Assembly: GCA_004376265.1 (NCBI GenBank)
Contig: SOKL01000334.1
Coordinates: 1-32,432 of the forward strand
DNA length: 32,432 bases
From: Candidatus Thorarchaeota archaeon
Lineage (GTDB): Archaea; Asgardarchaeota; Thorarchaeia; Thorarchaeales; Thorarchaeaceae
Direction of reading: 5' to 3'
Program-made: the position numbers and the translations under genes
Shown here: positions 6,903-31,850 of the stretch, piece by piece
Position numbering within the stretch: position 1 is the first letter of the stretch
Layout of the letters: every line of letters begins with the position of its first letter
The notes under the pieces: model-generated
What the model saw: the letters and a program-made list of their open reading frames with translations, nothing else
The model's database searches: none
Told to the model about the DNA's origin: nothing

Positions 6903-7229
6903 ATCTAACGAATACACGCATACATGACCATTATAGATGAAACCGTTTAGACGAACTAGAATATTCAGCGAGGTCATCTAGATGCAGTCCGAAAGGGTCA
7001 TGCGATTGCGCAAACAGAGCGACGGAGTATCTGAATCCCATTAGATAAACGAATTCAGTGACATCATGGACTGTCAATTTGTCTTTAAGGTTACAAACTT
7101 GGTCACTGGGCAAATCTTAAAAACATACTACGACTCGGCTCGCGATGTAGAAAGAATAGCCATGCGGCGACTATTCGATTGAAGATGATTTTGATGCCGC
7201 ATGGGCTGCAAAACTACAAGGTGACAATA

Positions 7230-9054: not shown

Positions 9055-9318
9055 ATGAGAGACCCAAATGAAATCATTATCCGCCCTGTCGTGACAGAGG
9101 CAAGTCTTGAGGCAGTGGACGACGAGAACAAGCTGATTTTCTACGTGGTTCGTACAGCGAACAAGAACACAATCAAGTGGGCAGTCGAGTCCCTTTACGA
9201 AGTTGTAGTTGAGAAGGTCAACACTCTGATAATGCCAAACGGAAAGAAAAAGGCATTCGTCAGATTAGCGCCTGAATACAGTGCCGCTGAGGTTGCAACA
9301 AACCTCGGGATATTCTAA
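9055..9318 (+). CDS. rpl23: 50S ribosomal protein L23 (uL23)
   Basis: MRDPNEIIIRPVVTEASLEAVDDENKLIFYVVRTANKNTIKWAVESLYEVVVEKVNTLIMPNGKKKAFVRL. Confidence 0.97.
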   Translation: MRDPNEIIIRPVVTEASLEAVDDENKLIFYVVRTANKNTIKWAVESLYEVVVEKVNTLIMPNGKKKAFVRLAPEYSAAEVATNLGIF

Positions 9319-9489
9319 GGAGGCTTATGAATGGGTAGAAGCTCCTCTTATCTTGACTTACTTACGAATATGAATAATCGTTTCCCGACCACTGATATCT
9401 ACGAACACCAACTTCTCCCTATTTTCGGACCTTGACCTTCAGAATGATCACTACAGCTCCAAGAAGGATGATGATGAATATTGCAAATC

Positions 9490-10074
9490 TCAATGGTAAT
9501 GAAGAGATATCCGGGGGGGGTCTCCGGGGTTGTAGTGAGCCATGAGTTGGTAAACTACTGATTCTGCTACATGCCCAAGACTGTCATTGGCAAAGAATTG
9601 AATGTCAAATTCTGTAGTATATGGTGCTAAAGTGACTCTGAATGATCCCGAGAATGTGTTCTCCCCAAAAGCTGGTGATATGACCATCGATTTATTATTA
9701 CTCCATTGACTCTCGTTGGTGCGTCTGTATAAGAACCACACCATTTCAACACCATCCTGATCCACGACATCAATCCTGACACTGATACTTGGGTTAGAAG
9801 AGGTTGTGTCACCACTATCATAGCTGTAGTTTGCGAACACTGTCTGATTTTCCTGAGAAGGCAAGTATGATGTATGCTGTGTTGTAGTCATTGAACTATT
9901 GGCAACCAGTCCCATACCTATGAATGCCATACCTGATGTAAGAAGTATGAAACTGAAGATGAATATTGACAGACACCCACAGCTCTTTTGTATGACTACC
10001 AACTCGAAAGGGTGTATTTGAATGTAAAGTCCGCTGGATGGACCTTTATGTTCTGACTCCAGTCGTATGTCCAC
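9490..10074 (-). CDS. Putative membrane-anchored/secreted protein of unknown function; C-terminus displaced by a homopolymer frameshift
   Basis: N-terminal hydrophobic segment (LSIFIFSFILLTSGMAFIGMGLV), Ser/Thr-rich beta-type ectodomain; the shifted frame downstream (to 9419) encodes a plausible C-terminal TM anchor. Confidence 0.6.
   Translation of the reverse strand: MDIRLESEHKGPSSGLYIQIHPFELVVIQKSCGCLSIFIFSFILLTSGMAFIGMGLVANSSMTTTQHTSYLPSQENQTVFANYSYDSGDTTSSNPSISVRIDVVDQDGVEMVWFLYRRTNESQWSNNKSMVISPAFGENTFSGSFRVTLAPYTTEFDIQFFANDSLGHVAESVVYQLMAHYNPGDPPRISLHYH
9513..9520 (-). repeat. 8-nt poly-C tract (G8 on + strand) at the frameshift point
   Basis: + strand reads ccgggggggg tctcc; direct count of eight G. 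Confidence 0.95.
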
Positions 10075-10493
10075 TTCTTTGCAGTATATAGGTTTGACAC
10101 CCTAACCACTTTGCCCTTAATCTATGACAGATGATATTTCTATTTATACTCATGTTATTCTAAGATTTTTCGAGCTCTTTTTTATGGTCTAATCTTACCT
10201 AGAAAAATCCAGTGTAAGTGAGAATGCATCTGAGAAATCAGGAAACAATTTTGGCTTTTGGTGCAAAAAGCGAACTACGCCTTGGGGCAATGAGGAGTCT
10301 CATGTTGGATTCGTATCAACAGGCCGTTTAGGCAAGGAAAATTAGGCGGACCGAGGGTTATGAGGTATCTATTCCAGCGTTAGAACATTCGTACATTTTA
10401 TCCTGCCTCGAGTATAAGAATAAGTAATTTCCTTTCCTCATCACGATAGGAGCGTAAAAGGCAACCGAAAGATAACATTTCAGGTGAAAATCC

Positions 10494-12734
10494 ATGCAAC
10501 GAAAGCGAGGTGCAGACCTCCTTAGGGAGATTCATGGTGAATTACTTACTGAGAGTGAGAGAGATGAGTTAGTCAGGGAATTGAAGAAAGAATCAGAGAT
10601 ACTGCAAGATACTGAGAATTGCAGTTTCCGAGATCTGGACCCTGAAGAAGTGCATCGACTATATTACGAAGAAAAGTTCTCTCAAAGAAAAGTAGCTGAA
10701 GTTCTAGGTTTTTCAAGGGATGCAATTCAAAACCTTTTCAAAACCCAAATGTGGAAACCTAGACCGGTGGGGGGTGTTGAGAAAGACATTGACCACCAAG
10801 AAGTCTATCGTATCTGTGTTGAAGAGGGGCGCTCCAAGAAGGAAGCTGCTGAGATTCTTGGATGCAAGTCGATAAGACCAATCAATCGTATTTTGAATGA
10901 GAAAGATTGGAAGACCCCACTTGAGGTAAAGATGGAAACTGAGATTGATCCTGATGAGGTTCACCGACTGCATTTTGAGGATGGGTGGTCTTTCATCAGG
11001 ATAGCCAATCAATACGGCTATGAATCGAAGGATATCATCAGCAAACTATTCAAAGAGAGAGAATGGATTCCAATTCCTATAGCAAACAGAGTTGTCTACG
11101 AGTTCCCTTCAGAGATTGAAGAAGAACACCGGATTGAGCCATCTAGAATCAGTGATGCTTTTGAACATCTAGGAGATTCAGAGGACATCTCACCCTTGGA
11201 CATGGCTCGCTGTATTGAGAAAGTCATGTCTTCATCTCCTTCTGAATCAAGAGTCGAGTGGATGGGACTCTCTTCTCAATCTAAGTGGAACACAAGGGTT
11301 ACTAAAGTGCTTGAGGATGAGCTGACGGAAGTAGAAACCTCACTGAATGAACTTCTTGGTATTTCTAAAGAATCCAAGATGAAGGTCCGCGTGGGATTTG
11401 TAGATGGTAAACTCTACATCCGACATCAAGACAAGTCCGAATACAACTGGATGAACATCTATAACAACGAGCTCTTCTACTTCAAGTCTGTGGATGATAA
11501 ATTCAAACTTATGCATGAGATGAGAGCAAGGCTAGGTCTGAGCACTAATATGGACCTGGGTAGGCTCATTGACCAACTCACAGACCGTGAGTCAGCTGAG
11601 GGGAATGGATACAGCGACATCAAGGAGTGCCAGGATGAACATCTGCGCGCTGAAACTCTTCATCTTATACTTGATACAACAGGACAAACATTGTCTGATA
11701 CTCGAGATGTGATTCAATGTATTGGAAAGATTCGTGGTGGAAAATACGAGGGAAAAGGGGGAATTAGAAATCCAAAATTTCCCACCGGTTCCGACGAAAT
11801 TGACATCATGTTTGCAAGATTCTTTGGTCTTGGACTATCGGACGGTCATATTAGTAAAACCAGTGATGAATTTGTGTATGCTGAGAAGAATCCTGACCGT
11901 CGTAGAATCGTTACTGAGCATTCCAATGACTTTGGAGATGTTTACTATAAGGAAAAAGAAATCAAGGGTGAGATACGTCAAATTCAGTTTGCATCTGCAT
12001 TTGGTCGTATCTTGAAAAGAAGGGGGTTTCCAGTTGGTGATAAGAGTATCCTGAACATTGGTCTTCCTAATTTCATAAAAGAAGGGTCATTGCAAGTAAT
12101 ATGCGTATATTTCGGTAATCTGTGGCCGGAGGATGGTTGTTTCACTATAGAATACCTGCGAAATGTTGCATATTTCACATGGGATCGTTCAGTTGTTGTT
12201 AGAGATCCAACAAAGGAAGTAGAATATGGTTTCAAGGCAGTAGTAGCTGATGACCAATTATCACTCTTTGAAAAATATGGGGTACATAATGAAGAGGATT
12301 TGAAAAACGGGTTCAAAGAAGAGTTTCATATGACATCGAAGACCTTAGAGGAACTTATACGATCAAAGAACCCCAAAGTATCTTCTCCAGCAGAAGAACT
12401 CAAAGAAATAGTACTCTCTAACTCATCTAAACTCTTGAATGATGAGATTGAAGCTCTACGTAGAGTGGGTGTGCATGCAAATCAAAGACTCCTGAAACTC
12501 ACATATCATGTTGAATCATCACGGGTATCAATCTCTTATAGAGGTAAAATCTATAGAAAGAAGGATGTCATGCGAACAGCGTTAATTATGTCACCTGATG
12601 ATATGTGTAAACGAGCTAAAGTTGAAGAATGGATGAATCTTCGTCCTAAACTAAGAAGAGAAACCGAAAGAGAACTTGCTGACCCTGACAATATAGATGG
12701 AAACGACGGTGAAAAATCATTAGTTACTCAATGA
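10494..12734 (+). CDS. 746-aa protein: three tandem HTH-like repeats followed by a two-motif LAGLIDADG-like domain; paralog of the ORF at 25455-27719
   Basis: Repeats DPEEVHRLYYEEKFSQRKVAEVLGFS..W / DHQEVYRICVEEGRSKKEAAEILGCK..W / DPDEVHRLHFEDGWSFIRIANQYGYE..W; LAGLIDADG-like FARFFGLGLSDGHI and ICVYFGNLWPEDGCF. Confidence 0.75.
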   Translation: MQRKRGADLLREIHGELLTESERDELVRELKKESEILQDTENCSFRDLDPEEVHRLYYEEKFSQRKVAEVLGFSRDAIQNLFKTQMWKPRPVGGVEKDIDHQEVYRICVEEGRSKKEAAEILGCKSIRPINRILNEKDWKTPLEVKMETEIDPDEVHRLHFEDGWSFIRIANQYGYESKDIISKLFKEREWIPIPIANRVVYEFPSEIEEEHRIEPSRISDAFEHLGDSEDISPLDMARCIEKVMSSSPSESRVEWMGLSSQSKWNTRVTKVLEDELTEVETSLNELLGISKESKMKVRVGFVDGKLYIRHQDKSEYNWMNIYNNELFYFKSVDDKFKLMHEMRARLGLSTNMDLGRLIDQLTDRESAEGNGYSDIKECQDEHLRAETLHLILDTTGQTLSDTRDVIQCIGKIRGGKYEGKGGIRNPKFPTGSDEIDIMFARFFGLGLSDGHISKTSDEFVYAEKNPDRRRIVTEHSNDFGDVYYKEKEIKGEIRQIQFASAFGRILKRRGFPVGDKSILNIGLPNFIKEGSLQVICVYFGNLWPEDGCFTIEYLRNVAYFTWDRSVVVRDPTKEVEYGFKAVVADDQLSLFEKYGVHNEEDLKNGFKEEFHMTSKTLEELIRSKNPKVSSPAEELKEIVLSNSSKLLNDEIEALRRVGVHANQRLLKLTYHVESSRVSISYRGKIYRKKDVMRTALIMSPDDMCKRAKVEEWMNLRPKLRRETERELADPDNIDGNDGEKSLVTQ

Positions 12735-12912
12735 TAAGATTCAAAAGGAGACCGCAAATTCCACCCGTTTGTAGTAAGAATAGGTTCGGCAAGACCTGAC
12801 CTGCAAAACTACAGGTGAATCATATGCTAATTTGGAAATCTTGCATTTCACAAAAAGAGAATGCTCTTTATTTTGTAACAACGAAAAATGACGCGCTCAG
12901 CTCAAGGAGGGG

Positions 12913-13638
12913 TTGCTGACGGGTCGTAGAATCCTCGTTCAAAGAAAAGGAAGGGGTACCACGCAATGGAGATCCCCAAGCCACAAGAAGATTGCACCAG
13001 CTAGACATCCCAAGTGGGCTCCAGACAAGACCTACGTAGGCACAATTATGAATCTTCATCATGAGTCTGGTCGAGGAGCTCCTCTGGCTGAGATTCGCTA
13101 TGAAGGTGAATCAAAGATACACCACATAGTTGCTCCTGAGGGTGCACAGATTGGTCAGTCAATTGAGTGTGGCGAAGACGCTGCGCTGGCAAACGGAAAC
13201 ACTCTGCTGCTTGAACATATCCCTGAAGGTACACCTGTCTATAACATAGAAGGTAGTCCTGGTGATGGAGGAAAATATGTGAAAGCCTCAGGTCTTGCAG
13301 CCACAATCGTGTCTATTGACAAGGCAAAGGCAATGGTGCGACTCCCAAGTGGCAGACAGAAGGCTTTCAGTCCACGGTGTCGAGCCACAATCGGTATAGT
13401 TGCTGGTGGCGGTCGTCAAGAGAAGCCTTTCTTGAAAGCTGGAGCAGTCTGGCATCACACTCGTGGAAAGGCTAGAAAATGGCCTGTTGTCCGAGGTGCT
13501 GCAATGAATGCATGCTCACATCCTCATGGTGGTGGTTCTCATCAGTCACCTGGTAGACCAAGCACAGTAAGTAGACATGCCCCACCTGGTCGGAAAGTGG
13601 GAAACATTGCGGCTAGGCGAACTGGTCGCAGAAAGTAG
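12913..13638 (+). CDS. rpl2: 50S ribosomal protein L2 (uL2)
   Basis: GRRILVQRKGRGT...GSPGDGGKYVKASG...RGAAMNACSHPHGGGSHQSPGRPSTVSRHAPPGRKVG; TTG start after AAGGAGGGG. Confidence 0.97.
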   Translation: MLTGRRILVQRKGRGTTQWRSPSHKKIAPARHPKWAPDKTYVGTIMNLHHESGRGAPLAEIRYEGESKIHHIVAPEGAQIGQSIECGEDAALANGNTLLLEHIPEGTPVYNIEGSPGDGGKYVKASGLAATIVSIDKAKAMVRLPSGRQKAFSPRCRATIGIVAGGGRQEKPFLKAGAVWHHTRGKARKWPVVRGAAMNACSHPHGGGSHQSPGRPSTVSRHAPPGRKVGNIAARRTGRRK

Positions 13639-25136: not shown

Positions 25137-25403
25137 ATGTTTTCAAAACTAGCAAATGTCCGAGTTAAATTGGTGTATCATAAGTATAGCTACGACGGTC
25201 TGAGAAATGTGCAAGCACAATACAGAAAACAATGTGTAATTTGTCCAAAGAAAGGCACTATGGAGAGAATCAGAATTAGTATTGGCCCCTTGGGACTAGG
25301 CGAGAGGGAGAGAAGTGCCTGTGATGGTTGTCCAATTGGAAAAGAACTTCGGTCAATTCAGGAAGAAATGGTCCGAAGGAGAAAAAGGGGTTGGGACATT
25401 TGA
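25137..25403 (+). CDS. Small putative zinc-binding protein of unknown function
   Basis: 88 aa with CVIC...CDGC cysteine pairs (QCVICPKKGTMERIRISIGPLGLGERERSACDGCPIGKEL). Confidence 0.5.
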   Translation: MFSKLANVRVKLVYHKYSYDGLRNVQAQYRKQCVICPKKGTMERIRISIGPLGLGERERSACDGCPIGKELRSIQEEMVRRRKRGWDI

Positions 25404-25454: not shown

Positions 25455-27719
25455 CTAAAGTTGTTTCTTAATTCTTGCAACGTCATCGGGTATTAGTATC
25501 AACCATTCCTGAACCATCATATTCTTTCGTGGGTCATTTGGAGGAGCAATCAAGGCCCACCTAATTGAGTCGTCTTTTCGCTCTGTTGTTGCTACCCATT
25601 TCAAAGAAATTCTACCCGTTTCATTGTAAAGTGTAATGTATTCTGGATACACATGAATTTCAATTCCTAATTTGTTAGCTAGAGAAACTTCATCATCCAA
25701 CAATCTGCTTCTATTTTTCTCTACAACTGAAAGTATGTGTTCGACAATTTCAGATTCAGACTCATCAGGATGCTTCGCATAATTCTCAAGTCTTGTTATT
25801 GGAACGTAGACCTCATTCGAATATCGTCTGGTATGTTTAAATTTTACTAGAAACTCGATTTCGTCAATAGATAATTCCGATTCCATCTTATACTTTACAT
25901 CAGTAGTTCCTAGTTTTAGAACATTTGTTCGGCTCCATCGAAATCCATTACTCTGATCAAAGCAACCATCTTCCGATATCAGGTCTTCAAGATAGGCTAC
26001 GTATGATTCCATTGAAGCTTCTCTGATAATACTAGAGAGTCGTTCATTTCGAATAGGTTTGTCACCAGAAGTAAAACCCCAGTAAATGAATGCATTTCCA
26101 ATTGGTTTCGGTATCCACATACGATAACTTTTGTTGAATTCATTAGGTTCTATTTTGAATGCCAAATCCCCAAATTGTTGAAATAAATTGGCTACAATCT
26201 TTATCCTCTCTTTGTTAGCTTCGGAATAAAATAACCGACCATCTTCTCCTAACCAGCAATCACTATTGATAATAGCACCAAGTCTAGCCCGAAGGATCTC
26301 TAGTTCTGTGCCCTTCAAGAGTTTCGGATGAATAACACCACCTCGCCCATTACTCCCTGTCATCCTCTCAATCTTATCTTCAAGATATCTTGGTGAAACA
26401 CCAATAATATCGCATTGAAGGTGAAAGATTTCTCCTAGAACTCTCGATTTTGCATTTCTATTCAGAATCTTATCTTTAGGTCTGTTTGAAACAATCTGTT
26501 CAACAAGTTTATTCAAATGACGTAAAATTTCGTACCCATTATTCAGACCGAGATGTCTTCCAGTTTCCAGTATTATCTGTGCAAGATTGCTTGGATTAAA
26601 ATGGAAATACTTCCTTGCCCACACGTTTATCATATCATTTGGTGTCTTGTCAGGATTCCATAGGTATATTCTCTCGTCCACAATGCCAATACGAACGCTT
26701 TGTTCTGAAATATTCAGATTCAATTGAGTATGTACAATTCTTTCAATTTCTGTTCTATTTTCTTGCAACCAACTCTCTATCAATGAACTATTTTCAATTT
26801 TGAAATCCATGTATGCAATCCTTGATTTTGTTTTCAATAATGCATGAGTTATCTCATTGGCAATAGATACAAAATCTTCTTCTGCGAAGAATTTTGGATC
26901 TAGTTTTGCTAACACGCTATTCAATTTACAAGAATCGCCTGAGGAAATATTATACATTGAAGCATCAATCTGTTCCATAGTTTCAATGTGCTTAGATTCT
27001 AGATATCTTTCCACGATGTCAGACTCTTTCCCTCGAATACATCTACTTAACCCATTTTTCTTCCATTCATCTATTATCCGAATTTCTTCATTCCGACGTA
27101 GATGTGAAATCAGTATAGTTTCTTTCCCTTTTTGATAGTCACTAATTCTTGGTTGTTGGATATCATGAATAGGAGCCAGTTCAGTCTGTTTCATATAATG
27201 ATTGTTTCTGACAGCTAGATAGATACTTGATTTTCTATATTGCTCCACAAAACTATCATCTTCTCTCTTTTCAGGATATTTCTCGAGAAGTCTATCAATA
27301 TCCCGCATGGATTCAATTCTGACTCTAGGTGGTCCACCATGTGTTTCTTCAAATAGGAATTGAACTAATGCATCATCCATTTCTCTGACTAATTTTGGTA
27401 TGTTGTCCTTGTGGTTATTTTCAAAGTACTCTTCCGCTTCACGAAGATGTTTTTCATATCCTCTTCTCAATCTAAATTCAGGATTCGCAAGAAGTGCAGT
27501 TACAAATTTCTGTTTAGTAACAACTATTTCTGGTTCAAATAGTGAGAATTCTGCATGATTAAGATGAACCCAATCTTCCCTTTCTTCACGAGTTAGAAGT
27601 TTAGAATGGTAATCACGAAGGAACCGATCACGTTCCTCAGAATTAAGTGACGCTTTGGGTTCTATCTCTTCTATTTTCTCCAATGTTTTATCTTCTTCAT
27701 AGTCGAATGATTCATCCAT
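25455..27719 (-). CDS. 754-aa HTH + two-motif LAGLIDADG-like protein; last gene of the T4SS-like operon; paralog of 10494-12734
   Basis: XRE-like HTH candidate MKQTELAPIHDIQQPRISDYQKGKETI; LAGLIDADG-like RARLGAIINSDCWL and YVAYLEDLISEDGCF; shared blocks with the 746-aa ORF, including LLTxxER N-terminus, VRxGxVDxxxY and G(R/K)GG(V/I)xxPK. Confidence 0.75.
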   Translation of the reverse strand: MDESFDYEEDKTLEKIEEIEPKASLNSEERDRFLRDYHSKLLTREEREDWVHLNHAEFSLFEPEIVVTKQKFVTALLANPEFRLRRGYEKHLREAEEYFENNHKDNIPKLVREMDDALVQFLFEETHGGPPRVRIESMRDIDRLLEKYPEKREDDSFVEQYRKSSIYLAVRNNHYMKQTELAPIHDIQQPRISDYQKGKETILISHLRRNEEIRIIDEWKKNGLSRCIRGKESDIVERYLESKHIETMEQIDASMYNISSGDSCKLNSVLAKLDPKFFAEEDFVSIANEITHALLKTKSRIAYMDFKIENSSLIESWLQENRTEIERIVHTQLNLNISEQSVRIGIVDERIYLWNPDKTPNDMINVWARKYFHFNPSNLAQIILETGRHLGLNNGYEILRHLNKLVEQIVSNRPKDKILNRNAKSRVLGEIFHLQCDIIGVSPRYLEDKIERMTGSNGRGGVIHPKLLKGTELEILRARLGAIINSDCWLGEDGRLFYSEANKERIKIVANLFQQFGDLAFKIEPNEFNKSYRMWIPKPIGNAFIYWGFTSGDKPIRNERLSSIIREASMESYVAYLEDLISEDGCFDQSNGFRWSRTNVLKLGTTDVKYKMESELSIDEIEFLVKFKHTRRYSNEVYVPITRLENYAKHPDESESEIVEHILSVVEKNRSRLLDDEVSLANKLGIEIHVYPEYITLYNETGRISLKWVATTERKDDSIRWALIAPPNDPRKNMMVQEWLILIPDDVARIKKQL

Positions 27720-30429
27720 TACTCGACTCCCCCATTACAGATTCGTCAACTCTCAAATATTCGAATGTTATTGCAATATACTGGTTGACATCACTAGGAT
27801 TTTCGATATCGAGAAACTCAGAAACGAGATTGCGAATATAATGTTGTGCTGTTTCCTCATTCTCTTTCAAGAAACAATTGTAGTTCTCGCTAACAATTTT
27901 TGATTTGACCAGATATCTTAGATTCCAAAGAATAACAGGATCAGGTTCCCATTCCGGCATAACTAATGGAATATTTTGTACGGTGAGATGTGGATTATCG
28001 ATATAGAATGAATCCATCAAACTAGAAACTTGGAGGTCTGAATATCCATCTCCTATTTCCTGATAGTGAACAACTTGCACATTCACAGCTTGGTCAGTAA
28101 ATCCTTGATGAACTACTGCTTCACCAATGCTCAATGAACCGAGATAGTTCAGCTGTTCATCTGTAAGGTTGGCTTGACCACCAACAATCACACGTTCCCG
28201 TTTATCTTTGAGAAGATGGAGAATAGTGATACCGGGCAATTTAACTGCAGCATCAGCTAAATTTCCTGGTAATTGGTCAAGAATAAAAACTCCAAGCCCA
28301 TATCCTCTTGCTTCTCGCAATAGACGCACTATACTGTTTATCGCCTGCTGTTGACTTGCATGACTCTCATATAGGCCACCACCGGTATTGATGCGTTTCA
28401 ATAAGTGATGAGCCTCTTCCAAAACCAAGATGTGCTTCAGCTCTTGTTTAACTGACTTATTCTGAGCCTCAAGATATTCTGCCACGCCCACCAGAATAAG
28501 ACTACCAATCAGACTAAGTTTTCTCGATGGAAGATTTCTGAGTTCTATAACCGTTGGATTGTTGAGTAACTCAGGAATTGAGATTCCTCTCCCCGCATTA
28601 AGAATGACAGCAATCTGAGAATCATCAATAATCGCCCCAAATCGGGCTTTGAGAGCCCCAACAAAGTCTTGATTCAATCCAGGGCCATAATCAAGCTCAC
28701 AGACAACCATCTCCATAGCTCTGTAGAGATCTGTAAGTAAGATTGACCGACCCCGTGTATTCTCAAGTATGTTCCACCCGCAAATAGAATACACACGTCG
28801 AAAAACTTTGGAGATATGCTCTAGCAGAATACCCTCAGTTGGCCAAGCGGCTGTGAAACAGGTGATTAGACCGTCGATATGTTTCTGAATTGGTACCCCC
28901 GGCGGCACTTCAAAGGGATTGTAACGGAAAGGAGCAGTATCCTCATCACCCACAGTAAAGATTCGGAGATTGGAAACTGATTCACTCAGTAGTCGCATCT
29001 CAGATGTGGAGGGATCAATCACAAGAAATGGAATACCTAGATTGTCAAACTCGTGAAGAAGATGCTTCATAGTATTTGATTTTCCACTCCCTGTTTGACC
29101 GAACAGACCTGTGTGAAGACAGAATCTATCCTTAGGAATATCATAGATCTGTTCGAGACGTTTTCCCTTATACAGAACCTGTCCCAAGGGAATTGATTCA
29201 GTCCTCTCTGAATCAAGCAAGGGTAGCAGAAACTCAGGAGGAATTGATCTTCGAGAAACCCCAGGGAGCGGTTCCGAGAAGTCAAGAAGTGCAAGTAGCT
29301 TGGCTCCACTCACAGAAGTACGTCCCAGAAGGTGGTTTCGAAGTAACAATCGATTCCAATTTCTTTGAAAACTATCTACCTTGGATGCGATTATCTTTAC
29401 ACCACTCCATACTGATCTCACTATTGCTTCTATCTGATTCATACTATGTCCCCTTTCTCCAAGAATATTCACACTGGTTCGAAAGACACCAGTTTCCTCA
29501 CATGCCTCAATCTCAGCCATCTGTTTGTAGATACTGCTTAGCTGATGCTCTTCGACACGATATGGTGTTCTAGATTGATACTCTAGATTTCCACTTTGGA
29601 CTCCTGCATACCTTTTCATACGAGGCTGAGTGCCCGAATTGAATGAAAATTGATTTCGAGCCTTGATTTTTCTATCAATCAGTCTCTGAAGTAAGACCCC
29701 ATAATTGTTTGAGAGTCGATTTGGTAACCCCTCAATCGAGAGGGAGTCCATTGATTCATGGCATTCAGTATCCAAGTCTGAGTAGGCATTCACAAGTTGT
29801 TGTCTAACAAGGACCTCGAATGAGTAGTCCATCTGTTTCAGCCAAGTATCTGCCACCTCTCGGGATTGGTGGACCTTCTCAATGGCACGTTTCCAGTTCT
29901 TGTCTATAGATACCATGAAGACAACAAGTTCTACTAGCCCATTCTCCCCCTTTGCCTCTACTGTATAGGTGGTTCCTGACTTATGACAATCCTCCCAAAG
30001 GGGATGGAGCAACCTCAGTTCTTCATTCGCATCCTTTCCTGAAATGTCAGTCCTGGAAGGAATTCCTATGATTCTGACTGCGTTCATAGCTACAAAGATA
30101 CGACTCAGAGAGAAGCACAGAGTATCATCTAAATCATAATCGAGGATGACAGGAGAGCTGGAATCTGCATCCGATGGACGAAATGCTTCATAGACCACCA
30201 TTGGAGTCACAAGAAGCATCATAATCAGGGTCCAAGATGGATCATAGTTTCCAAGGGTGAGCTCCGCACTTACAAACACAACAAGCCCGAGAACAGCACT
30301 GATTTCAGTACCAAAACGATTTCCTCCTATAGACAGTGCAAGATGAGCCAACGTCATCACTAGCACACTGACACCCATTAAGACAAGGAACGGAACAATA
30401 CTACTGAGCCAAGCGATTAAATCAAACAC
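27712..30429 (-). CDS. Membrane-anchored VirB4/HerA-type (DUF87-like) ATPase, CedB-like
   Basis: N-terminal hydrophobic helices; Walker A HTGLFGQTGSGKSNTMKHLL; IDPSTSEMR; Walker B HILVLEEAHHLL; VIGGQANLTDEQLNYLGSLSIGEAVV. GTG start. Overlaps both neighbouring ORFs by 8 nt. Confidence 0.88.
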   Translation of the reverse strand: MFDLIAWLSSIVPFLVLMGVSVLVMTLAHLALSIGGNRFGTEISAVLGLVVFVSAELTLGNYDPSWTLIMMLLVTPMVVYEAFRPSDADSSSPVILDYDLDDTLCFSLSRIFVAMNAVRIIGIPSRTDISGKDANEELRLLHPLWEDCHKSGTTYTVEAKGENGLVELVVFMVSIDKNWKRAIEKVHQSREVADTWLKQMDYSFEVLVRQQLVNAYSDLDTECHESMDSLSIEGLPNRLSNNYGVLLQRLIDRKIKARNQFSFNSGTQPRMKRYAGVQSGNLEYQSRTPYRVEEHQLSSIYKQMAEIEACEETGVFRTSVNILGERGHSMNQIEAIVRSVWSGVKIIASKVDSFQRNWNRLLLRNHLLGRTSVSGAKLLALLDFSEPLPGVSRRSIPPEFLLPLLDSERTESIPLGQVLYKGKRLEQIYDIPKDRFCLHTGLFGQTGSGKSNTMKHLLHEFDNLGIPFLVIDPSTSEMRLLSESVSNLRIFTVGDEDTAPFRYNPFEVPPGVPIQKHIDGLITCFTAAWPTEGILLEHISKVFRRVYSICGWNILENTRGRSILLTDLYRAMEMVVCELDYGPGLNQDFVGALKARFGAIIDDSQIAVILNAGRGISIPELLNNPTVIELRNLPSRKLSLIGSLILVGVAEYLEAQNKSVKQELKHILVLEEAHHLLKRINTGGGLYESHASQQQAINSIVRLLREARGYGLGVFILDQLPGNLADAAVKLPGITILHLLKDKRERVIVGGQANLTDEQLNYLGSLSIGEAVVHQGFTDQAVNVQVVHYQEIGDGYSDLQVSSLMDSFYIDNPHLTVQNIPLVMPEWEPDPVILWNLRYLVKSKIVSENYNCFLKENEETAQHYIRNLVSEFLDIENPSDVNQYIAITFEYLRVDESVMGESSNG

Positions 30430-31273
30430 CTAGAATCATCATCCTATAGAGTTCGAGAATAGAGTTCAGAAAAACCAGTGAGAACTGGACATTCATTGCA
30501 GGAAAAACAGCTAGTAGCAAGACTGACAGGATTGCATGGTAGGTCCCTTGCTGACTTGACCCATTCATGAAGTACCGAAGTATCTCAATCCCACCGCTAC
30601 AACTCCCTGTTATCCCAACAATGTACACGATGACCATGACTAGAATGTTGATGTACCAACCAGTAACTCCCAAGGGAATTGGAATAGGTATCGTAGTCCC
30701 AACTATCTCAAATGGTAATAGGTAGATTATTGGAATGACGAACAGAAAGGGAAGGATGCCTTGAAAGTACTGATGGATGGTCAGAATCAACCCTACTGAC
30801 AGAAGACTCCAGAAGTAACCCCGAAAGACTGCTTTTACTAGGTTGTCACGCTGCCCCGTCAAGTGTGATATGAGGTTTCGGACCAGATTGCTTCCACTCA
30901 TCAGCACGATTCCGTAGACGACTATGAACAGGAAGGGAATAGCTGAAGATATACTCCAGACTGAGCCTGCAGTTACCACACCGAGTAAGGTTAGGATTGG
31001 CCAACCAATCTCAAGCATCAACCAGCTTCCTGCAAACAGGGCGATGGATCTGAATGGCACATCAATACCTGACCCGAACCTCGACAACCAACGCATCATT
31101 GATGACCCAGACTTCTCCCAGCTGCTTGTCCTAGGATGTGTCATCTTGTAGGCAGAGCCCATTTTCCTTGAATAGTACTGACCGACTCGATGACTCCTTG
31201 AAACTGGTTCATTTCGCTCAGGATCAGACTCAGAATACATCCAATCCCCCCAGTAGTAGTATTGTGAGTGCAA
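30422..31273 (-). CDS. Polytopic membrane protein (candidate VirB6/CedA-like)
   Basis: About 80-aa hydrophilic N-terminus then 6-7 predicted TM helices; overlaps the downstream ATPase ORF by 8 nt. An internal ATG at 31240 is an alternative start. Confidence 0.65.
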   Translation of the reverse strand: MHSQYYYWGDWMYSESDPERNEPVSRSHRVGQYYSRKMGSAYKMTHPRTSSWEKSGSSMMRWLSRFGSGIDVPFRSIALFAGSWLMLEIGWPILTLLGVVTAGSVWSISSAIPFLFIVVYGIVLMSGSNLVRNLISHLTGQRDNLVKAVFRGYFWSLLSVGLILTIHQYFQGILPFLFVIPIIYLLPFEIVGTTIPIPIPLGVTGWYINILVMVIVYIVGITGSCSGGIEILRYFMNGSSQQGTYHAILSVLLLAVFPAMNVQFSLVFLNSILELYRMMILGV

Positions 31274-31850
31274 TTGACAGAAATGGCAGCAAGAGAGTCA
31301 GGATTCTACCATATACTCCCTTAGATGCTGCTTCAATATCGAGTTGTGTCTGAAGGTTGTTGATTGCATCTGGCAGCAGGAGGAAGAATGGCACAAGACT
31401 GCACAGGGCTAGGATGATCTGGAAAGAGGGAGGGATATCCAGTTCTGATGAGTTCTCCTCAATCTGAATCCCTACAAGATACACATGATGGTCTGAACTT
31501 GATATCTCAAGTCTAGCACGTTCCTCTCCGAACATGACACTATCAAGATTGACATATTGGATGGAACAAAGAATAGAAGAGCCGTTTGTGACATAGTAAA
31601 CCGATCTTGTATATTGATCATTCTTTACATGAAACGGCTCTTGGACTTCAAGCCTTTCACCAACAGATTTGTTATAATAGAAACTGAAGACTATTGTCAT
31701 CTCTGACTCTTGGCTGATACCATTCAACCCTATCTGATACCATTCTCCAGGTTTTGCAAGGACGATGCAGGGAGTATCCTCAGCATCACTGATAATTGGC
31801 GACGCTGAGAACACTACCATTAGTAGGAGAATTACACTCTTTATCCTCAC
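31230..31850 (-). CDS. Signal-peptide membrane protein with an ectodomain and two C-terminal TM helices
   Basis: MRIKSVILLLMVVFSASPIISDAE signal-like; ectodomain ~115 aa; FQIILALCSLVPFFLLLP and ILTLLLPFLSIALTILLLGGL. Confidence 0.65.
   Translation of the reverse strand: MRIKSVILLLMVVFSASPIISDAEDTPCIVLAKPGEWYQIGLNGISQESEMTIVFSFYYNKSVGERLEVQEPFHVKNDQYTRSVYYVTNGSSILCSIQYVNLDSVMFGEERARLEISSSDHHVYLVGIQIEENSSELDIPPSFQIILALCSLVPFFLLLPDAINNLQTQLDIEAASKGVYGRILTLLLPFLSIALTILLLGGLDVF

Follow-up and report, generated by a model that had tools for sequence, protein, structure and literature searches.

The closest described counterparts of the element reported here are the mobile endonuclease open reading frames (mORFs) of fungal mitochondria, which occur at atp6 in Allomyces and at atp6, atp9, cox2, and nad3 in Glomus (PMC3630166). 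mORFs and the element have in common an endonuclease gene and a foreign, synonymously diverged gene end that is joined in frame to the host gene and leaves the native end displaced (PMC3630166). The core trick, an endonuclease coupled to a foreign gene end that displaces the native one, is already known from these fungal mORFs. mORFs are found in organelle DNA at 3' ends, whereas the thorarchaeal elements are found in archaeal chromosomes, at both 5' and 3' gene ends and at tRNA genes. The thorarchaeal elements also go beyond mORFs: they form cargo arrays, some copies include a HerA/VirB4-like module, and a leader RNA has been copied. The nucleases PI-SceI, I-DmoI, and I-Tsp061I resemble the protein encoded by the element in their two-motif fold and catalytic acids, and the systems are alike in occupying one conserved site, in the existence of empty sites, and in decay. 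Unlike these nucleases, the thorarchaeal protein, of 746 amino acids, is free-standing and much longer, has an N terminus with three helix-turn-helix (HTH) units, and carries a gene end with it.

Two further systems are comparable in part. HeimM2 of Heimdallarchaeum, like the thorarchaeal element, is an Asgard mobile element with a homing-endonuclease-like gene and a fixed site; the accessible part of its description, on which this comparison rests, proposes that the gene directs integration between the 16S rRNA and tRNA-Arg genes and does not mention gene-end replacement, arrays, or rescue (PMC8813620). The HomeR and Cleave-and-Rescue drives, as outlined in the accessible parts of the reports, also combine a nuclease at an essential gene with a recoded rescue (PMC7968924, PMC7951863). 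Both are engineered, HomeR working in Drosophila with CRISPR, whereas the thorarchaeal element is natural, archaeal, and presumably guided by protein. A search of the open-access literature, with most subscription papers outside its range, found no description of LAGLIDADG elements that replace gene ends in archaea.

The window, the 32,432-nucleotide stretch of DNA that was analyzed, corresponds to contig C215 of the draft genome G000 (3.0 Mb), whose genes read as Thorarchaeota-like and whose order is represented by 47 genomes. Unlike mORF-bearing DNA it is not mitochondrial; it is an archaeal contig with uL3, FtsZ, and other chromosomal genes. The original prediction considered a tight uL3-uL4-uL23-uL2 order to be the norm and proposed a 3.6-kb insertion between uL23 and uL2. 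Both points hold. Among 30 uL2 loci compared within the order, 25 are empty, with uL23 and uL2 spaced 9 to 19 bp apart, and close relatives of the window are among those with empty sites. The element is sporadic rather than vertically conserved across the phylum. An insert with a LAGLIDADG (LAG) gene is present at 3 of the 30 loci, in G000, G028, and G017. The homologues of the 746-amino-acid protein that lie directly 5' of uL2 are 77% identical in G028 and 67% identical in G017. Because these homologues precede uL2 in two other genomes, and because close relatives have empty sites, chance and misassembly can be ruled out. The contents of the gap were also as predicted: a minus-strand open reading frame (ORF) for a secreted-type protein at 9490-10074, a noncoding stretch at 10075-10493, and the ORF of 746 codons at 10494-12734. 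The features of the locus are as follows.

7142 to 7223, plus strand: native uL3-operon leader RNA, of the type copied by the element (covariance model, E = 1.4e-16; in the training set)
9319 to 9341, plus strand: relic of the original uL2 start, comprising the old Shine-Dalgarno sequence and ATGGGTAGA(AG) (matches the intact start of empty-site genomes in position and almost entirely in sequence)
9342 to 12918, no strand: inserted element of ~3.58 kb (absent between uL23 and uL2 at 25 of the 30 loci)
9490 to 10074, minus strand: cargo gene for a secreted or membrane-anchored protein, frameshifted at a run of eight G residues (three-frame translation)
10494 to 12734, plus strand: gene for the 746-amino-acid putative nuclease (motif, AlphaFold2, and Foldseek evidence)
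12766 to 12818, plus strand: hairpin carried by the element and copied from the leader RNA of the uL3 operon (covariance model, E = 1.3e-7; E = 3e-6 in the whole-genome search)
12824 to 12919, plus strand: short ORF of 31 codons, its stop overlapping uL2 codon 1 (in each of the four filled genomes the overlap is -1 to +2 nt)
12904 to 12912, plus strand: new Shine-Dalgarno sequence for uL2, AAGGAGGGG (conserved GGAGGGG)
12919 to 12954, plus strand: replaced (recoded) 5' end of uL2, with ACG rather than ATG as codon 1 (codon comparison across the genus)
12955 to 13638, plus strand: remaining native uL2 coding sequence (Pfam Ribosomal_L2_C, 6e-42)

The insertion boundaries differ from those proposed previously, 9319 and 12912. 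uL23 ends at 9318, but the left edge is not intergenic, as 9319-9341 belongs to uL2, and the right edge is at ~12919, immediately before uL2 codon 2, where uL2 resumes. At the left junction TAAGGAGGCTTATGAATGGGTAGAAG runs from the native operon into uL2 codons 1 to 3 and then stops; at the right junction AAGGAGGGGTTGCTGACGGGTCGTAGAATCC leads back into uL2. Therefore, the insertion is within uL2, and the start of the gene is now the element's. A target duplication had been suggested for the two edges. No classical one was found there; the gene end was replaced instead, and the left and right ends of the element differ in sequence. A search for exact matches to the right-end motif yielded two more, both within unrelated coding genes.

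Two other loci with wider gaps bear traces of the element. The 2.5-kb insert between uL23 and uL2 in G008 is a decayed copy, the end of which, translated by eye, still resembles the C terminus of the LAG protein (EKWIQLHPELRRRVERE versus EEWMNLRPKLRRETERE). In G011 the gap is 89 nt and holds both an old and a new start; it looks like a scar. The contigs of G028 and G017 start within the element, so that their right junctions alone are visible. More generally, the genomes are mostly drafts with contig ends close to several elements, and left ends are mostly unseen. At the left junction in G008 (L070, 5812-5860) the old uL2 start lies within a perfect palindrome, TACTATGGGTAGA CG TCTACCCATAGTA. 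In G028 the LAG gene holds within its 3' end (L068, 2480-3380) a piece of ~0.9 kb that has an ORF for a secreted protein on the minus strand; bordered by the repeat AGAGAACTTGCTGGCC, this piece is apparently a nested insertion.

The 746-amino-acid protein is most likely a LAGLIDADG homing endonuclease, as judged from two motifs, their acids, and the predicted fold, with cutting activity presumed from these features. The N terminus has three HTH units (approximately residues 47 to 190), and the LAGLIDADG motifs are FFGLGLSDGH (residues 443 to 452) and YFGNLWPEDG (residues 539 to 548). Across 64 aligned family domains D450 is conserved in every one that includes the region, and the acid of motif 2 is D or E in every member that covers the motif. 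The AlphaFold2 model (mean pLDDT, 83.8) gave as its best Foldseek matches in the PDB the folds of PI-SceI, the TliVMA intein nuclease, I-Tsp061I, I-DmoI, and WhiA, with a probability of 1.0. The best E value, 3e-4, was modest, perhaps because the query extends beyond the LAGLIDADG domain. Pfam and NCBIfam searches returned only weak HTH matches for the protein, and a family profile searched against PDB sequences matched only homeodomain/HTH-like proteins, with E values of >0.1. Because sequence searches were weak, the LAGLIDADG assignment relies on the motifs and the fold comparison. The presence of WhiA, which also combines HTH and LAGLIDADG domains, among the fold matches and the location of the gene in a ribosomal operon might indicate a domesticated transcription regulator recruited beside uL2, as the original prediction considered. 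This is highly improbable: the gene is sporadic and decays, as in G008, the catalytic acids are retained, and relatives adjoin unrelated genes.

The uL2 start brought by the element is recoded, with synonymous changes over approximately 11 codons. In codons 4 to 14 (window numbering, counted from 12913), genomes G029, G025, G021, G024, G020, G030, G022, and G026 have a native class of allele, and the recoded class is found both in the filled genomes G000, G028, and G017 and in the element-free genomes G027 and G031. When G020 was compared with G027, G028, and G031, 9 to 11 of the 11 codons for the same amino acid differed within codons 4 to 14 versus 51 to 54 of ~200 past codon 14 (P = 4e-4 to 1e-6 for the contrast). 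The edge is sharp, with codons 15 to 24 nearly unchanged in these comparisons. For example, G020 and G027 differ at 10 of 11 same-amino-acid codons in codons 4 to 14, at 0 of 9 in codons 15 to 24, and at 51 of 204 from codon 15 onward. Comparison of G000 or G017 with G029, the nearest empty relative of the window, gave a contrast in the same direction that was not significant, because in these more distant pairs synonymous divergence is already high throughout uL2. The recoded ends could be the product of plain divergence, in an end taken from another species. G027 and G031 most likely lost the element and kept the recoded end, a reading of the sequences that is favored because the rest of uL2 is almost identical among G027, G028, and G031. 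Gene conversion may instead have brought the recoded end alone to G027 and G031.

The right end of the element appears equipped to drive uL2 translation. A covariance model built only from seven native uL3 leaders, with the element copy of the window outside the training set, matched just two places genome-wide, one being the native leader and the other the copy between the LAG stop codon and uL2. The model also matched the elements of G028, G008, and G017, so that four genomes have the copy, and a C-G pair of the native inner stem is G-C in the elements. Downstream of the copy is the short ORF, of 31, 31, 19, and 25 codons in the four filled genomes, and GGAGGGG stands at the same distance ahead of uL2 codon 1 in G000, G028, G017, and G008. 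Codon 1 in the filled genomes is ACG or TTA, never ATG. No in-frame ATG was found at the uL2 start in any of the four, and in two of them ATG, GTG, and TTG are all absent. The TTG at 12913 that had been proposed as the uL2 start is doubtful because an in-frame ATG is absent. The preferred reading of this arrangement is that uL2 would be translated by termination-restart coupling from the short ORF with the aid of the strong ribosome site. Native uL3 leaders fall into two classes, GCTGCAAAACTA in G000, G024, G025, G011, and genus g13 and TTCGATAC in the others, as read upstream of uL3 at L070, L071, L073, L081, L085, and L086.

The missing start codons, along with the old start that remains intact in G000, G008, and G011, might also be explained if the insert behaved like an intron, with the old ATGGGTAGA joined to the uL2 body in the RNA. 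An intron is improbable on several counts. The RNA structure close to the right end copies the uL3 leader, an Rfam search of the insert and the native leader matched neither an intron nor a known RNA, and pairing between the two ends of the insert, including the archaeal bulge-helix-bulge type, did not exceed chance. No intron or intein housing the 746-amino-acid gene was found. Furthermore, the new start retains a ribosome site together with a coupled short ORF, and the copies at uS19 and Lsm are clearly not introns.

The reading that we consider likely is that a homing endonuclease drives an element that has its own recoded rescue end and is sometimes linked to a HerA/VirB4-like module. The sequences themselves show the insertion and its exact site at codons 2 to 4 of uL2, the recoding, the relics, the match between clade and target, and the predicted fold; cutting, insertion through repair, immunity of the recoded end, and a part in transfer are inferred. 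The HTH array of the LAGLIDADG protein would bind the target and its LAGLIDADG core would cut element-free uL2 at the insertion point, after which repair would copy in the element with its right end. That end holds the recoded uL2 start, the ribosome site, the short ORF, and the leader RNA copy. The essential uL2 gene would remain functional and, as recoded, could presumably no longer be cut, a built-in rescue. Relatives would act alike at other gene ends, including the 3' ends of uS19, Lsm, and tRNA genes, with repeated rounds at uS19 leaving behind a series of displaced gene ends that have cargo between them.

LAG family members are present in 42 of the 228 genomes of the phylum, 31 of which belong to the order of the window. 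The approximately 60 relatives in the order are mostly at the ends of conserved genes, such as uL2, uS19, Lsm, and tRNA genes, and members adjoining uL2, uS19, and Lsm are accompanied by relics. At all three genes an in-phase replacement end occurs together with a displaced native end, as in mORFs. Other bordering genes, read by eye without a database match, we take to be sahH, sufS, rubredoxin, rnhB, porB, scpB, and mcm. The tRNA genes include those for tRNA-Ala, tRNA-Val, and tRNA-Phe and in several copies are 1 to 50 nt from the LAG gene or an accessory gene. The tRNA-Ala genes that abut LAG elements at L181, L175, and L195 appear to contain introns. Direct repeats in several copies pair the restored gene end or tRNA side with the far side of the element, and the right-hand repeat is the end of the gene in every case with an identified gene (Lsm, sufS, rubredoxin, and a 375-amino-acid-protein gene). 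The LAG clade tracks the target gene: seven target groups require 6 changes on the tree, the minimum, and none of 200 shuffles was as low, a statistic to which near-copies contribute. For some copies no target gene could be assigned. The uL2, Lsm, sahH, mcm, and tRNA-Ala groups each form one side of a branch; the uS19 and pyrE-side groups do not. Horizontal movement of the LAG gene fits the sequence divergence, because the synonymous difference between G000 and G028 is 0.33 for the LAG gene versus 0.51, 0.57, and 0.65 for the host genes uL2, uS19, and Lsm, and by uS19 and Lsm G000 is nearer to G017 than to G028. Thus, of the two roles originally envisaged, homing-type insertion at a conserved locus is borne out by the empty sites, the two-motif fold, the target-specific clades, and these signs of horizontal movement, and recruitment as a regulator is not.

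Tyrosine integrases usually target the 3' ends of tRNA genes and the ends of other genes. The element could accordingly be a conventional integrative element with an unrecognized recombinase, in which the gene ends are att sites and the LAGLIDADG and HerA genes are cargo or a defense module. The types of sites hit, the fixed crossover point, and the restored gene end fit such an element, and the HerA-like ATPase matches HerA models from anti-phage systems. We regard this explanation as unlikely. No PF00589 integrase was found near LAG copies among 36 integrase matches in the 47 genomes; the sole contig with both is a chromosome-sized contig of G034, on which they are hundreds of kilobases apart. 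The target is predicted by the LAG clade, and the restored gene end is bordered by the LAG gene or its accessory gene. At uL2 the two ends of the insert do not match each other, as they would if they formed an att core.

Signs of repeated insertion are seen at uS19, where a search found intact genes together with repeated 3' fragments. Most of the 29 relics listed start at the codon after GEF (codon 111), and some are shorter or decayed. Most keep the frame and the stop codon, and they differ from one another mostly at synonymous sites. Up to ~5 kb of varied genes separates neighboring relics. Between G031 and G028, uS19 differs at 13 of 99 same-amino-acid codons upstream of codon 108 versus 18 of 28 downstream (P = 2e-7). 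From these sequence patterns, the arrays are read as serial replacement of one gene end. Most cassettes in the arrays have no LAG gene and may have moved in trans, lost the gene, or used another enzyme. The Lsm relics begin at one codon. G034 has two full uS19 genes ~55 kb apart (L160 and L161).

Cargo is also found in the window. The secreted-protein ORF of the uL2 element is frameshifted at the eight-G run at 9513-9520, and the other frame continues to a C-terminal transmembrane anchor; the frameshift could be phase variation, decay, or sequencing error. A relative (35%) of this protein adjoins uL2 in G008. No remnants of the HerA module were seen in the noncoding 10075-10493. A second cassette in the window is fuller.

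25455 to 27719, minus strand: second LAG family member, 754 amino acids (26% identity to the 746-amino-acid protein, E = 4e-39)
27712 to 30429, minus strand: HerA/VirB4-like ATPase gene, overlapping the 754-amino-acid-protein gene (HerA/VirB4-like matches)
30422 to 31850, minus strand: two membrane or secreted proteins of 283 and 206 amino acids, part of the HerA-like cassette (homologues next to a HerA-like gene)

The ATPase matches HerA and VirB4 folds and has N-terminal membrane helices, in a model of low confidence (pLDDT, 65). A homologue (52%) is located within the uL2-site element of G017, next to a homologue of the 283-amino-acid protein, and homologues of both the 283- and 206-amino-acid proteins adjoin a HerA-like gene on another contig of G000 (C259). 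A HerA/VirB4-like gene is upstream of the LAG gene at 13 of 62 loci, within 40 nt at 11 of the 13. The ATPase and membrane proteins of such fuller versions may aid transfer from cell to cell. No target could be assigned to the second cassette in the window, as the adjacent 88-amino-acid-protein gene is unique to the genome and no tRNA gene was seen there. The 88-codon ORF (25137-25403) encodes cysteines and is in no other genome of the order.

We favor, with less assurance than the homing reading itself, the view that these elements are a distinct class of archaeal integrative element in which a LAGLIDADG protein replaces the integrase, an essential gene is broken at a fixed codon and repaid with a recoded end (plus, at uL2, leader RNA), and serial replacement at uS19 gives rise to integron-like arrays of cargo with old gene ends interspersed. 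In archaea related to the ancestor of eukaryotes, the element seems to be a naturally occurring equivalent of home-and-rescue gene drives. Such elements would show that selfish DNA can persist in essential genes without introns or inteins and would account for the interrupted ribosomal operons and out-of-place gene ends of carrier genomes. They would make ribosomal genes used as phylogenetic markers patchworks at their ends and would yield natural sets of site-specific nucleases, with targets and resistant alleles readable from the genome.

Two further observations concern related genes elsewhere. In G042 and G044 (L109, 7409-8509, and L164) a LAG gene is followed by what seems to be only the C-terminal part of methylmalonyl-CoA mutase, and the mutase gene may be split at this site. 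In several genomes HTH-repeat proteins without a nuclease domain are encoded just 5' of the uL3 cluster (L082, L083, L084, and L073).
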